Positions 18,821 through 32,574 of a stretch of DNA of 64,000 nt are shown piece by piece. Position 1 is the stretch's first letter; every line of letters begins with the position of its first letter. The translations under genes were made by a program, and so were the position numbers. The notes beneath the pieces were generated by a model. It saw only the letters and a program-made list of their open reading frames with translations, ran no database searches and was not told where the DNA came from. Origin of the DNA: Chitinophaga pinensis (lineage in GTDB: Bacteria; Bacteroidota; Bacteroidia; UKL13-3); assembly GCA_945898275.1 (NCBI GenBank), contig CAMDHZ010000003.1:124001-188000 (forward strand). The letters are read 5' to 3'.

Positions 18821-18843
18821 AATATAAAATTTGCTGTAAAATA

Positions 18844-18896
18844 AAAAAATTCCACACCAGTCATTGTAAATCAATGATTGGTGAGGAATTTTTTTT
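18844..18896 (-). terminator. Terminator after the bacilliredoxin gene
   Basis: A long stem pairs the AAAATTCC...ACCAGTCATTG side with the CAATGATTGGTGAGGAATTTT side across a 5-nt loop, with one small internal mismatch. The 5' A-run and 3' T-run allow use on either strand. It sits between the bacilliredoxin stop and the acyltransferase start. Confidence 0.8.
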
Positions 18897-18919
18897 TATT
18901 AAAGTTAAGACGATTTAAA

Positions 18920-27087: not shown

Positions 27088-27507
27088 TTAAATACTATTG
27101 TACTTCAAAAATTCTTCATAATTCCGCAAATAATCTGTTTCATTATAAGTATGAGAGGCCAACACAAGGCAGATAGAACCAGATGAAAAATTAATTTCGG
27201 AAGCCCAAATTCCAGGAGGAATGTGTAAACCCATGTAAGGCCTATTTAAATGAACAAGTCTTTTTGACCTTCCATCATCCAATAATATTTCAAAAGAGCC
27301 GCTTGCAGCTACTAAAAACTGATGACATTCTTTGTGTGCGTGAGCACCCCTAGATTCCCCACCAGGAATATCATAAAGGTAGAAAACCCTTTTTATTGCA
27401 AAAGGAATTTCTTGGTTATTATGAATAGGTGTGATATGCCCTGATCTATTGCCAATTTTAGGGAGATGAAGCACACTACAATCAAAAACAGTAATATTAC
27501 TTTTCAT
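27088..27507 (-). CDS. FdtA/WxcM-like sugar 3,4-ketoisomerase (copy B)
   Basis: I start at Met 27507 (MKSNITVFDC), which gives 139 residues and an 11-bp overlap with the preceding gene; the longer frame would overlap it by more than 60 bp. A cupin-fold protein with FYLYDIPGGESRGAHAHKECHQF, the family block with the His-Ala-His pair, and a C-terminal YLRNYEEFL. Family members convert dTDP-4-keto-6-deoxy-glucose to the 3-keto isomer, a step toward 3-amino sugars. The usual partners (aminotransferase, RmlA/B) are not in the window. Confidence 0.78.
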   Translation of the reverse strand: MKSNITVFDCSVLHLPKIGNRSGHITPIHNNQEIPFAIKRVFYLYDIPGGESRGAHAHKECHQFLVAASGSFEILLDDGRSKRLVHLNRPYMGLHIPPGIWASEINFSSGSICLVLASHTYNETDYLRNYEEFLKYNSI

Positions 27508-27901
27508 TTCGAATTTCTTTAAATTGTTGAAAGTCTCGGATATATTCGTTTTCATCAAAAGGTTTGTCTGCTAAGACCAATGCCAAAGAATTAGTTGAAA
27601 AGTTCTCCATTGATCTCCAATACATCTTTGGAACATAAAGTCCATAATAAGAGCGATTCAATGTGTATCTATAGTCTGTTTTACCATCATTTAAAATTAC
27701 ATCAAAACTTCCACTTAGTGCAACAATAAACTCTTGTAATTCATGGTAGGCATGACCACCTCTTACTTCTCCGCCAGAAACATCATAAATCCAATAAGTT
27801 CTTTCTATACAAAATGGTATGTTTCTTGCTTCTTCTATAAAAGACAAATTTCCACGAGGATCTAAAAATTTTGGCAAATCTATTATTTTGGGTGTATTCA
27901 T
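27497..27901 (-). CDS. FdtA/WxcM-like sugar 3,4-ketoisomerase (copy A)
   Basis: A 134-residue cupin-like protein clearly related to the next gene: YWIYDVSGGEVRGGHAYHELQEF aligns with its active-site block. The second histidine of the His-X-His pair is Tyr here (HAY), so the catalysis may differ, or it may bind the sugar without isomerising it. Tandem position and shared length suggest an old duplication or two enzymes that act on related nucleotide sugars. It is the first gene of this small leftward operon, and a 451-bp AT-rich gap lies upstream. Confidence 0.75.
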   Translation of the reverse strand: MNTPKIIDLPKFLDPRGNLSFIEEARNIPFCIERTYWIYDVSGGEVRGGHAYHELQEFIVALSGSFDVILNDGKTDYRYTLNRSYYGLYVPKMYWRSMENFSTNSLALVLADKPFDENEYIRDFQQFKEIRNEK

Positions 27902-27999
27902 AATGTTTGTTGAAGTATTAATGCATTAACTTTGTCTTGTTTCCAATTAATACTTACTGTATTTTAACCTTTTAAGTATTGTTTTATTTAAGCAATTAT

Positions 28000-28037
28000 A
28001 AATTAGTGATTTACAAAACTTTTTAAATCACTAATTT
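28000..28037. repeat. Perfect 13-bp inverted repeat with 12-nt spacer
   Basis: AAATTAGTGATTT (28000-28012) and AAATCACTAATTT (28025-28037). No T-run follows, so it is not an ordinary terminator. It could be a regulator site or an untranslated-region hairpin. Confidence 0.5.
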
Positions 28038-28298
28038 AAATGGAAGTTAATTTTTGAGCAATATATTAATTGAAAAAGAATTAAAAAACATATTCAAGTT
28101 AAATAATGCTTGTCAATAGGTGCGTTTATTAAAGGTTTTTTAACTTTAACATAGGTCAATAACTTTATTTTCAAACTATTAATAACTAATATTTTCATCA
28201 TTACAATTATGTCTAGAATGCTAAATATGATTGGCTAATTTTCTATTTTTCAGGTATTTAAATAAATTAGTTTTAATAATTAAACCGAATAAAAGAAG

Positions 28299-28352: not shown

Positions 28353-28586
28353 ATGCCTTTAATTACCCTTCGCACTTTTCAATATCCCTTAGAAATTACT
28401 TTATTAAAAAGCATGCTTGAGGATTCTGGAATCCCTGTTTTTGTGAAGGATGAGTTTACAATCCTAATGAATCCATTGTATTCTAATGCAATTGGAGGCA
28501 TTAAACTTCAGGTGTTAGAAGAAGACCTAGAAAAAGCAACTGAAGTGCTTAAGGATTACGAAAGCGAGAATACTAACCAATCTTAA
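28353..28586 (+). CDS. DUF2007 family small protein
   Basis: A 77-residue protein of the DUF2007 (putative signal transducing) family: an N-terminal strand-helix (TFQYPLEITLLKSMLEDSGIP), a central DEFTILMNPLYSNAIGGIKLQV, and a C-terminal helix (DLEKATEVLKDY). It resembles a small ferredoxin-like alpha/beta domain. Its function is unknown. It lies 2 bp before the NADH dehydrogenase gene and is surely co-transcribed with it. Confidence 0.82.
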   Translation: MPLITLRTFQYPLEITLLKSMLEDSGIPVFVKDEFTILMNPLYSNAIGGIKLQVLEEDLEKATEVLKDYESENTNQS

Positions 28587-28588
28587 AA

Positions 28589-29857
28589 ATGTCTTCTAAA
28601 CAAACCATAGTTATTCTTGGAGCCGGATTTGCAGGACTATCAATATCAAAAAGTTTAGATGCTAAACTTTTTGATATTGTGCTAATTGATCGCTTAAATC
28701 ACCATCAATTTCAACCTTTGTTCTACCAAGTGGCGGCAGCACAATTGGAACCTTCCTCTATTTCATTTCCTATCCGTAATATTTTAAGAAACAAAAAGCA
28801 CATTGCAGTCAAGATGTGCGAGGTACTCAACATCGATCCTGCAGCAAAGTTGGTTCAAACCGAAACCGAAAATATACCTTACGACAAATTGGTAATTGCT
28901 ACTGGATGTAAAACCAATTTTTTTAATAACATTAGCATTGAAAAAAATGCTTTTACCTTAAAATCGACCACAGAAGCCATTCAGGTTAGAAACCATCTTT
29001 TAGAAGTATTCGAAGCACTATCTTCAAGTTCACAAGAAAATAGTGACCCGCGGAATAACATCGTAATTGTGGGCGGAGGACCAACAGGCGTTGAACTGGC
29101 AGGCGCCTTTAGCGAAATTATAAAAAGGGTTTTACCTGAGGAATACCCTTTAATTGATTCTAAAAAAATGAAGGTAATCTTGGTTGAAGGAAGCGCTCAT
29201 ACTTTAAACAACATGAGTGATTTGGCTAAAGTTTCTTCCGAAAAATACCTAAAACAAATGGGCGTTGAGATTATTACTGAAACTTTTGTGAAGGATTATG
29301 ATGGAAAAGTTGCGGTATTAAGTAGTGGACAAACCCTTGAAACTTCCACTTTAATTTGGGCTGCGGGGGTTAAAGGAAATATTTTACCTGGCTTAGCTTC
29401 AGAGGCTTACTTACCTAACTCAAGGTACAAAGTAAATCGGCATAATGAGGTATTTAACCATAATGATATTTATGCAATTGGAGACATTGCCTATATGGAA
29501 ACGCCTTTGTATCCAAAAGGTCATCCGCAGGTGGCAAACGTTGCAATCAATCAAGCCAATAATCTGGCAAAAAACTTCAAAAGGGCATTAAAGTCTGAAG
29601 CGCCTAAGCCATACGAATACCTAGATTTAGGAGCAATGGCAACCATAGGAAAAAACAAAGCCGTAGTGGATTTACCTTTTATGCGCTTTAAAGGATTTAT
29701 CGCTTGGCTGGTTTGGATGTTTTTGCATCTCATGCTTATTCTAAGTGTTAGAAATAAGCTAATAATTTTAATCCATTGGAGTTGGGCATATTTCTCTAGT
29801 GACAGCTCATTGAGGTTAATATTTAAAGCTAAACCTAAGCTAGCGATAAAGGATTAA
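28589..29857 (+). CDS. ndh: Type II NADH dehydrogenase (NDH-2)
   Basis: A 422-residue flavoprotein. The FAD-binding GAGFAGLS is near residue 9, the NAD-binding VGGGPTGVELAG near 158, an ATG/WAAGVKGN block near 250, and YAIGDIAYME near 293. A C-terminal hydrophobic helix (WLVWMFLHLMLIL) gives membrane attachment. NDH-2 passes electrons from NADH to quinone without pumping protons and could feed the ActABCDEF complex. The first codons contain an exceptional perfect hairpin (28641-28679). The last 4 bp overlap the convergent Asp-box gene. Confidence 0.9.
   Translation: MSSKQTIVILGAGFAGLSISKSLDAKLFDIVLIDRLNHHQFQPLFYQVAAAQLEPSSISFPIRNILRNKKHIAVKMCEVLNIDPAAKLVQTETENIPYDKLVIATGCKTNFFNNISIEKNAFTLKSTTEAIQVRNHLLEVFEALSSSSQENSDPRNNIVIVGGGPTGVELAGAFSEIIKRVLPEEYPLIDSKKMKVILVEGSAHTLNNMSDLAKVSSEKYLKQMGVEIITETFVKDYDGKVAVLSSGQTLETSTLIWAAGVKGNILPGLASEAYLPNSRYKVNRHNEVFNHNDIYAIGDIAYMETPLYPKGHPQVANVAINQANNLAKNFKRALKSEAPKPYEYLDLGAMATIGKNKAVVDLPFMRFKGFIAWLVWMFLHLMLILSVRNKLIILIHWSWAYFSSDSSLRLIFKAKPKLAIKD
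28641..28679. repeat. Perfect 18-bp hairpin inside the ndh coding sequence
   Basis: Arms 28641-28658 (CAATATCAAAAAGTTTAG) and 28662-28679 (its exact reverse complement) with a 3-nt loop ATG. It lies about 50 nt after the start codon and encodes part of SISKSLDAKLFDIVL. No T-run follows the right arm, so it is not a standard terminator. Confidence 0.9.
28852..28861 (+). repeat. GGTTYRAACC word, copy 7 (extended)
   Basis: In ndh, encoding LVQTETE; the flank reads GGTTCAAACCGAAACCGAA with GAAACC repeated. Confidence 0.7.
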
Positions 29858-30882: not shown

Positions 30883-32322
30883 TTACACTAAATTCATCTT
30901 AATGCGCTTTGCAATTTCATCAATATCTGCTTTAAACTTCTTGTCTGTTTCCATAAGGTCGTTTACAGTTTGACAAGCATGAATAACAGTAGAGTGATCT
31001 CTACCACCAAAGTGCATTCCAATAGTTTTTAAACTTGATTTTGTAAGGTCTTTGGCATAATACATAGAGATTTGACGGGCTTGTACAATTTCACGCTTAC
31101 GTGTTTTTGACTTTACCTGCTCTACTGGAATGGTAAAATAATCGCAAACCAATTTTTGTATATACTCAATTGAAATCTCTCTGGTATTATTTTTCACAAA
31201 GTTTTTGAGAATTTGTTTAGCCAATTCAAGGTTAACTTCTTTTCTGTTAAGACTAGCTTGAGCTAACAAACTAACCAAAGCTCCTTGCAATTCTCTTACG
31301 TTACTATTGATGTTGTGAGAAACATATTCTACAACCTCTTTATTTAAGGTAATTCCATCATTGTACATCATATGCTCAAGAATGGCCATGCGTGTCTCAA
31401 AATCGGGCGTTTGTAAATCTGCTGAAAGTCCCCATTTAAACCTGCTTAAAAGACGCTCATCCATGCCTTTTAAGTCCTTAGGCGCTCTATCACTTGTAAG
31501 GATGATTTGCTTACCTAATTGGTGCAAATGATTAAATATAGTAAAGAAAATTTCTTGCGTTTTTTGTTTATTTTCTAAAAACTGAACATCATCAACAATT
31601 AAAACATCAATTTGCTGGTAGTAGTTGATAAAATCCTGATTAGAGTTATTTCTTATGGCGTCTACAAATTGGTTAATGAATTTCTCAACAGGTACGTACA
31701 AAACAACCTTATTCTTGCTGCTTTGCTTTATCATATTACCGATAGCGTGAACCAAATGGGTTTTACCTAACCCTGTTTCGCTAAAAATCATTAGTGGATT
31801 AAAAGAAGTGCCACCAGGTTTATTAGCAACAGCTAAACCTGCACTTCTTGCCAATCTATTGCAATCTCCTTCAATAAAATTTTCGAACGTGCAATTTGGG
31901 TTAAGGTTACTATCAATATTAACCTTTTTAATCCCAGGGATAATAAATGGATTTCTAATACTTGGATTTAGGTTGATACCATGTGTTGCAGTTTGCTGTA
32001 ATTCTGACCTAGAACTAGTGCTACCAGGAATATTAACAATATACGGATTTGAAGTACTTGTGCCATTTTCAACTATTATATTGTATTCAAGTCTGGCGCC
32101 TACGCCTAATTCTTGTTTAAGCGTTTTCTTTAGTAAACTAACATAATGTTCTTCCAACCACTCATAAAAAAACTGGCTAGGTACCTGAATGGTAAGTACC
32201 TTGTTATCCAATTTAATTGGCCTTATAGGTTCGAACCAAGTTTTAAAGCTTTGTGCGGGTACGTTGTCTTGAATTAATTTTAGGATACTATTCCAAACAG
32301 ATTCACATGTTTTTTCAGTCAT
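30883..32322 (-). CDS. dnaA: Chromosomal replication initiator DnaA
   Basis: I start at Met 32322 (MTEKTCESVWN), 7 nt after a GGAGG ribosome-binding site, giving 479 residues; the frame is open 12 codons upstream. Domain I (NVPAQSFKTWFEPI), a Thr/Ser-rich linker, the AAA+ domain with Walker A (residues 181-188) and Walker B (VLIVDDVQFL), and the C-terminal DNA-binding helix with the GGRDHSTVIHAC signature are all present. DnaA-ATP binds and melts the origin. The first Walker A residue is Ser181 (SETGLGKT) where the consensus has Gly. Flanks are not the usual dnaN/recF genes. Confidence 0.95.
   Translation of the reverse strand: MTEKTCESVWNSILKLIQDNVPAQSFKTWFEPIRPIKLDNKVLTIQVPSQFFYEWLEEHYVSLLKKTLKQELGVGARLEYNIIVENGTSTSNPYIVNIPGSTSSRSELQQTATHGINLNPSIRNPFIIPGIKKVNIDSNLNPNCTFENFIEGDCNRLARSAGLAVANKPGGTSFNPLMIFSETGLGKTHLVHAIGNMIKQSSKNKVVLYVPVEKFINQFVDAIRNNSNQDFINYYQQIDVLIVDDVQFLENKQKTQEIFFTIFNHLHQLGKQIILTSDRAPKDLKGMDERLLSRFKWGLSADLQTPDFETRMAILEHMMYNDGITLNKEVVEYVSHNINSNVRELQGALVSLLAQASLNRKEVNLELAKQILKNFVKNNTREISIEYIQKLVCDYFTIPVEQVKSKTRKREIVQARQISMYYAKDLTKSSLKTIGMHFGGRDHSTVIHACQTVNDLMETDKKFKADIDEIAKRIKMNLV
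32228..32237. repeat. GGTTCGAACC palindrome in dnaA
   Basis: A perfect palindromic variant of the repeated word. It encodes the WFEPI block conserved in DnaA, so protein constraint alone could explain it; probably not part of the set. Confidence 0.25.
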
Positions 32323-32574
32323 TTCTTTGCCTCCAATTGCGTTCGTGAAAATGACCAAAAAAGTTCACACTACAAAACATTTTCAACAATCGTAAATTGA
32401 AAAACTGGGGGTAAAACATTTTACCCACTGATTTCTAACAGAAATTTTTTTTGTTTGAAAAAAAATTTTTTTGATTGCTAAAAACCATGTAGCGATTTTC
32501 ATAAGAATTTCTTCATAATACCCGAAACAACCAATAAAATCAGCACTCAACAGACGAAACAATTTATTAACAAA
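32323..32574. other. dnaA upstream region: AT-rich tract, inverted repeat, possible origin
   Basis: The 252-bp gap holds a perfect 8-bp inverted repeat GGGTAAAA-CA-TTTTACCC (32409-32426) about 87 nt before the dnaA start, a possible operator. Next come long A/T runs (about 32440-32475) that would melt easily. I see no convincing TTATCCACA-type DnaA box, so a replication origin is only a possibility. Confidence 0.3.
32330..32334 (-). promoter_or_regulatory. Strong Shine-Dalgarno site of dnaA
   Basis: GGAGG with a 7-nt spacer to the ATG. It decides the dnaA start. Most other genes in the window lack such a site, as is usual in Bacteroidota. Confidence 0.7.

Follow-up and report, generated by a model that had tools for sequence, protein, structure and literature searches.

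A perfect 18-bp hairpin lies inside the coding region of ndh in the stretch of DNA analyzed here (64,000 nucleotides in length and referred to as the window), and we consider it likely that this hairpin arose through template switching, i.e., quasipalindrome correction, in the window's lineage. The case comes from one lineage and one metagenome assembly, with close homologues in only three species. An earlier note on this DNA had described two exact 18-nt arms, separated by ATG and located about 50 nt past the start codon; the sequence itself and a repeat search confirmed this description, with an exact distance of 52 nt. The gene and the parts of the hairpin, in window coordinates, are as follows.

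28589-29857, plus strand: ndh, encoding a type II NADH dehydrogenase (NDH-2) of 422 aa (open reading frame, Pfam, and full-length relatives)
28641-28658, plus strand: left arm of the perfect inverted repeat, CAATATCAAAAAGTTTAG (sequence and repeat search)
28659-28661, plus strand: loop, ATG, 3 nt, out of the reading frame (sequence and repeat search)
28662-28679, plus strand: right arm, CTAAACTTTTTGATATTG, unchanged in the nearest relative (genome G008) and the putative template

The repeat search of the window gave 100% complementarity of the two 18-nt arms within a total palindrome of 39 bases. The stem ends there, with a mismatch at the next outward positions (T at 28640 and T at 28680). 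It begins at the 53rd base of ndh, 52 nt past the first base of the start codon, and spans +53 to +91, so that codons 18 to 31, directly after the GAGFAG motif, hold the stem. When the 39 bases were folded alone as RNA, the predicted energy was -18.7 kcal/mol (z = -9.7). The arms are AT rich (G or C at 4 of 18 bases), and the sequence 3' of the stem, TGCTAATT, has no T-run; an intrinsic terminator could therefore be ruled out. A dispersed, REP-like repeat was also rejected, as arm matches with at most two mismatches comprised the two arms themselves and 2 other places in 3,522,268 bases.

The assignment of the ndh product is supported by Pfam matches to Pyr_redox_2 (7e-43) and NDH2_C (1.5e-9). 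Two further genes in the vicinity are relevant here.

28353-28586, plus strand: DUF2007 gene upstream of ndh (Pfam PF09413, 6.4e-12)
30883-32358, minus strand: dnaA, near ndh

Only 2 nt separate the end of the DUF2007 gene from the ndh start codon, and the two genes probably form one operon. An origin-linked cruciform, considered because of the nearby dnaA gene, was rejected: DnaA-box-like sites (allowing one mismatch) were not enriched in the window (15 versus 22.4 expected), and the GC skew showed no clear origin. Two other inverted repeats were observed in the window, namely, an intergenic 19-nt repeat (95%, 2-nt gap) at 27999-28038, flanked by a gene on the minus strand (27497-27901) and by the DUF2007-ndh pair on the plus strand, and a 33-nt repeat (85% complementary, 5-nt gap) at 18834-18904. 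The DUF2007-ndh stretch (window 28365-29836; C3:152365-153836 of the home contig) shares 85.6% identity with G008, and the long alignments adjoining it (C3:128971-138928, 153861-170249, and 173645-198903) share 94 to 95%. On both flanks of this stretch, there are G008 stretches that do not align in order. The DUF2007-ndh stretch is possibly a recombined segment.

That a hairpin of this kind would form in ndh by chance is very unlikely. On the home contig (C3; 199,065 bases), it is the sole perfect hairpin with arms of at least 18 and a loop of 3 to 10, and third-order Markov simulations of C3 (n = 10) yielded means of 0.2 hairpins at 12 bp and 0.1 at 13 bp, with none longer. The earlier claim that chance formation is negligible thus holds for random sequence; the hairpin is nevertheless not unique, as 3 of the 22 perfect hairpins of at least 12 bp in the 588,183 bases examined of the window's genome (G000) lie inside open reading frames of at least 100 aa, a count that relies on mechanically called reading frames and misses hairpins truncated at the edges of sampled stretches. 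Besides the ndh hairpin, these three comprise a hairpin where a universal-stress-protein-like gene ends and another in a frame of 107 aa. Hairpins of 14 to 15 bp on C3 lie outside such frames, with one partial overlap. The hairpin in the 107-aa frame (G000:C12:6218-6258; L177) is a perfect 19-bp stem with a 3-nt loop, and nothing in G008, G005, or G017 matches the stretch bearing it; the frame presumably resembles a shortened RhuM-type protein. Another perfect hairpin, of 21 bp with a 4-nt loop, at G000:C11:14514-14559 (L176) partially overlaps an open reading frame and has a T run in its right arm.

We next compared the stem among relatives. Of 98 genomes subjected to a protein search, including the window's own, 53 gave matches, and a contig scan gave 79 loci, which are partly the same records. 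Each of the resulting 109 loci had a match to the first 110 residues. Ten that had an indel at the stem or lacked coverage there were left out, so that 99 loci with 91 distinct DNA sequences remained. Aligned at the nucleotide level, as the earlier note had proposed, the relatives do not keep the full pairing: the 18-bp stem is absent from 90 of the 91 distinct homologues, the window alone having it. At the homologous register, G008 (L002/L031) has 14 of 18 pairs, including a perfect 12-bp core with a loop of 3, and G005 (L003/L032) has 11. The remaining 88 homologues form a mean of 5.76 pairs (maximum, 10), with 6 of 18 in G017. Since the same 88 sequences form between 2.7 and 6.6 pairs at slid registers, no stem is kept among them, and this lack of conservation is directly observed. 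A predisposition driven by the codons (those of KKL and KLF are approximately reverse complements) was rejected on the same comparison, with 5.76 pairs at the homologous register versus up to 6.56 at slid ones for the 88 homologues.

A different pattern was found for a stem of 15 bp elsewhere in G000 (G000:C10:12289-12328; L187-L190), where the 3' ends of two convergent genes meet; we take these to be rho-like and universal-stress-protein-like (uspA-like) genes. Here, 15 of 15 positions pair in G000 and G008 and 14 of 15 in G017 and G005, or 15 of 15 in all four when G.U pairs are allowed, even though the sequences differ among the four genomes; compensatory changes are present. This stem is probably a two-way terminator that is also protein coding. 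Judged from the sequence comparison, a hairpin that is kept in these genomes has this appearance, and the ndh stem does not.

This bears on the proposal that the hairpin represses ndh or acts as a cruciform, i.e., that it is a lineage-specific cis-acting element (an mRNA structure or a cruciform) selected for ndh control while growing from 11 through 14 to 16 and then to 18 pairs. The stability of the stem is consistent with such a role, and its span past the start codon may be compared with the zone, about 25 to 60 bp past start codons, for which an enrichment of cruciform-capable repeats is described in E. coli (PMC6060812). One A-T to G-C double change that preserves a pair, distinguishing G005 from the G008/window pair, points in the same direction, but it was rejected as a sign of selection, since about 0.4 such changes are expected (a hand estimate from 5 left-arm and 4 right-arm differences with a perfect end state). 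Against this proposal, the other 88 homologues pair at the slid-register level, the stem is located away from the ribosome-binding site and is followed by no T-run, and the kept uspA/rho stem behaves differently in the same genomes. We thus regard selected control of ndh by this hairpin as decidedly unlikely. The hairpin probably has no selected role and would be a relic of mutation, not an element of control.

The comparison with the relatives instead supported the suggestion that the hairpin is a fresh product of template switching. Near-full-length ndh matches at the DNA level were found in 3 of 19 genomes of the genus, including the window's own (identities of 100, 85, and 74%), and the window and G008 genes differ at 205 of 1,260 sites. 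Within the 39 bp, their differences fall into one part of the hairpin.

28647-28673, plus strand: inner core of 12 bp with the loop, common to the window and G008
28641-28646, plus strand: outer left arm, putative converted tract (4 differences from G008)

All four differences (28642, 28643, 28645, and 28646) are located in the outer left arm, as is read directly from the sequences, and there is no difference between the window and G008 in the right arm or the loop. At each of the four sites, the base in the window is complementary to its right-arm partner, and the base in G008 is not. Two more differences are located just 5' of the stem, at 28636 and 28639.

The polarity of two of the four changes could be determined with G005 as an outgroup. 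G005 shares C at 28643 and G at 28646 with G008, and it shares A at both 28642 and 28645 with the window. By parsimony among these three taxa, 28643 C>A and 28646 G>T occurred on the window's branch; at 28642 and 28645, G008 may be the changed one. The parsimony ancestor of the window and G008 has 16 of 18 pairs, and the two window-branch changes repair precisely its two mismatches. If the ancestor had T at 28642 and 28645, all four changes would have been simultaneous. The C>A and G>T changes each alter a first codon position, in codons 19 and 20, respectively, and lead to L19I and A20S. Both are conservative replacements, in agreement with the view that the site tolerates sequence change.

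We propose the following course of template switching. The common ancestor of G008 and the window would have had a quasipalindrome at this site, with about 16 of 18 positions paired and all 12 bp of the core matched; the core with its loop of 3 seen in G008 is the substrate that a template switch needs and thus supports this reading. During replication, the nascent strand would have folded back on the core, and up to 6 nt of the outer left arm (from 28646 back to 28641) would have been copied from the right arm before synthesis returned to its template. At least two bases (C>A and G>T) would thereby have been altered together, most simply in a single event, converting Leu19-Ala20 to Ile-Ser, a change that the enzyme apparently tolerated. 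Because it is the left arm that changed, and the strand copies the right arm first, a fold-back within one strand would point to the minus strand, whose synthesis proceeds toward lower window coordinates.

The steps from 11 pairs in G005 to 18 in the window might also reflect a self-reinforcing mutational ratchet, in which repeated template switches in both directions build up the stem without selection. Right-arm changes would then have preceded the split of G008 and the window, followed by left-arm changes in the window. We consider this extension doubtful; if true, palindromes would be written into a coding gene, driving E>A near the loop as well as L19I and A20S.

The two changes could also have been independent point mutations that completed an AT-rich quasipalindrome by chance. 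The gene is sufficiently diverged from that of G008 for this to be considered, and the clustering of the differences is unremarkable. In permutations that preserve codon position, four differences within 5 bp occurred somewhere in ndh in 65% of cases and inside the 39 bp in 2.8%, and we therefore treat the clustering as weak evidence. The kinds of change, in contrast, speak against point mutation. Both are first-position transversions, and at first positions where the relatives agree, the window's branch shows C>A at 3 of 42 sites and G>T at 1 of 103 (the events under study counted), the single first-position G>T in ndh on this branch being the stem site itself. Treated as independent, both exact changes have a probability of 2.9e-4 (the events under study left out and a half-count added). 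In 400 forward simulations of point mutation at 15% divergence on a G008 contig of 188,715 bases, none reached 18 of 18 pairs, and a mean of 0.23 registers with 18-bp arms had at least 16 pairs. There would thus be only a few candidates with 16 of 18 pairs per genome, roughly four, and multiplying the estimates gives roughly a thousandth of an event per genome by point mutation. The probability and the simulation figures both ignore codon-level selection and concern a site that was chosen because it is perfect. Real contigs are also unlike the simulated ones, with 11 registers of at least 16 pairs in C3 and 0 in the G008 contig. Taken with these provisos, we regard completion by independent point mutations as unlikely.

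We also scanned 81,139 aligned bases of G000 and G008 (alignments of at least 80% identity) for repeats with at least two differences, all of them confined to one arm. There was no excess of such short-armed inverted repeats over mirror-repeat controls, either with G000 derived (6 versus 9) or with G008 derived (4 versus 8), a result that favors point mutation insofar as it provides no separate indication that template switching is frequent in these two genomes. The template-switch reading of the ndh hairpin consequently rests on the length of this stem and on the fit of each change. Among the inverted repeats in the scan, the ndh case is the only one with arms of at least 10 bp.

An assembly or library artefact, in which fold-back end repair or a chimeric consensus perfected the stem, was considered as well, since the window comes from a draft genome of 106 contigs. 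A search of viral contigs for the 39-mer gave no match, although none would be expected there. The frame is uninterrupted, however, the alignment with the relatives is gapless at the stem, and 12 of the 18 bp also occur in the G008 sequence, which was recorded separately (JAIYAT010000017.1). We thus regard an artefactual origin as highly improbable.

Template switching of this kind is already known, and the ndh hairpin adds a further example, from the coding sequence of a bacterium. In E. coli, where the mechanism is established, quasipalindromes are described as growing more perfect through template switching (PMC7202029); as in that system, one arm appears to be copied from the other, with clustered changes on one arm, but the mutation described there was seen in the laboratory, whereas the ndh event is deduced by comparing species within a lineage of uncultured Bacteroidota. 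For yeast coding genes, homogenization of arms of 7 to 16 bp, mostly with amino acid replacements, is described (PMC8604942). The ndh case likewise appears to show in-gene arm homogenization with amino acid replacements, with arms of 18 bp, but it is a bacterial one and comprises one proposed event and three taxa, so that its polarity is less firm. Template switching is also described as making and maintaining RNA hairpins, with one event being able to complete a stem (PMC8794818). Here, too, compensatory changes need not imply selection; unlike the RNA genes treated in that work, however, ndh is a coding sequence with no sign of a kept RNA structure. Finally, perfect inverted repeats inside protein genes are described for Nematomorpha mitochondria, where they are numerous and reach up to 284 bp (PMC6649704), whereas ndh presents one short case that would have arisen from a pre-existing quasipalindrome. 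Our literature search followed the mechanism, with the organism and the gene outside the search terms, and found no report of the ndh site.

Apart from what it implies in three respects, the ndh hairpin is ordinary. The presence of a perfect stem within a gene is no evidence that it has a function. A pair of nonsynonymous changes can result from one event, and tests for positive selection would then be misled. And a hairpin that looks regulatory is, in this natural bacterial lineage, more plausibly left over from a single error of replication.
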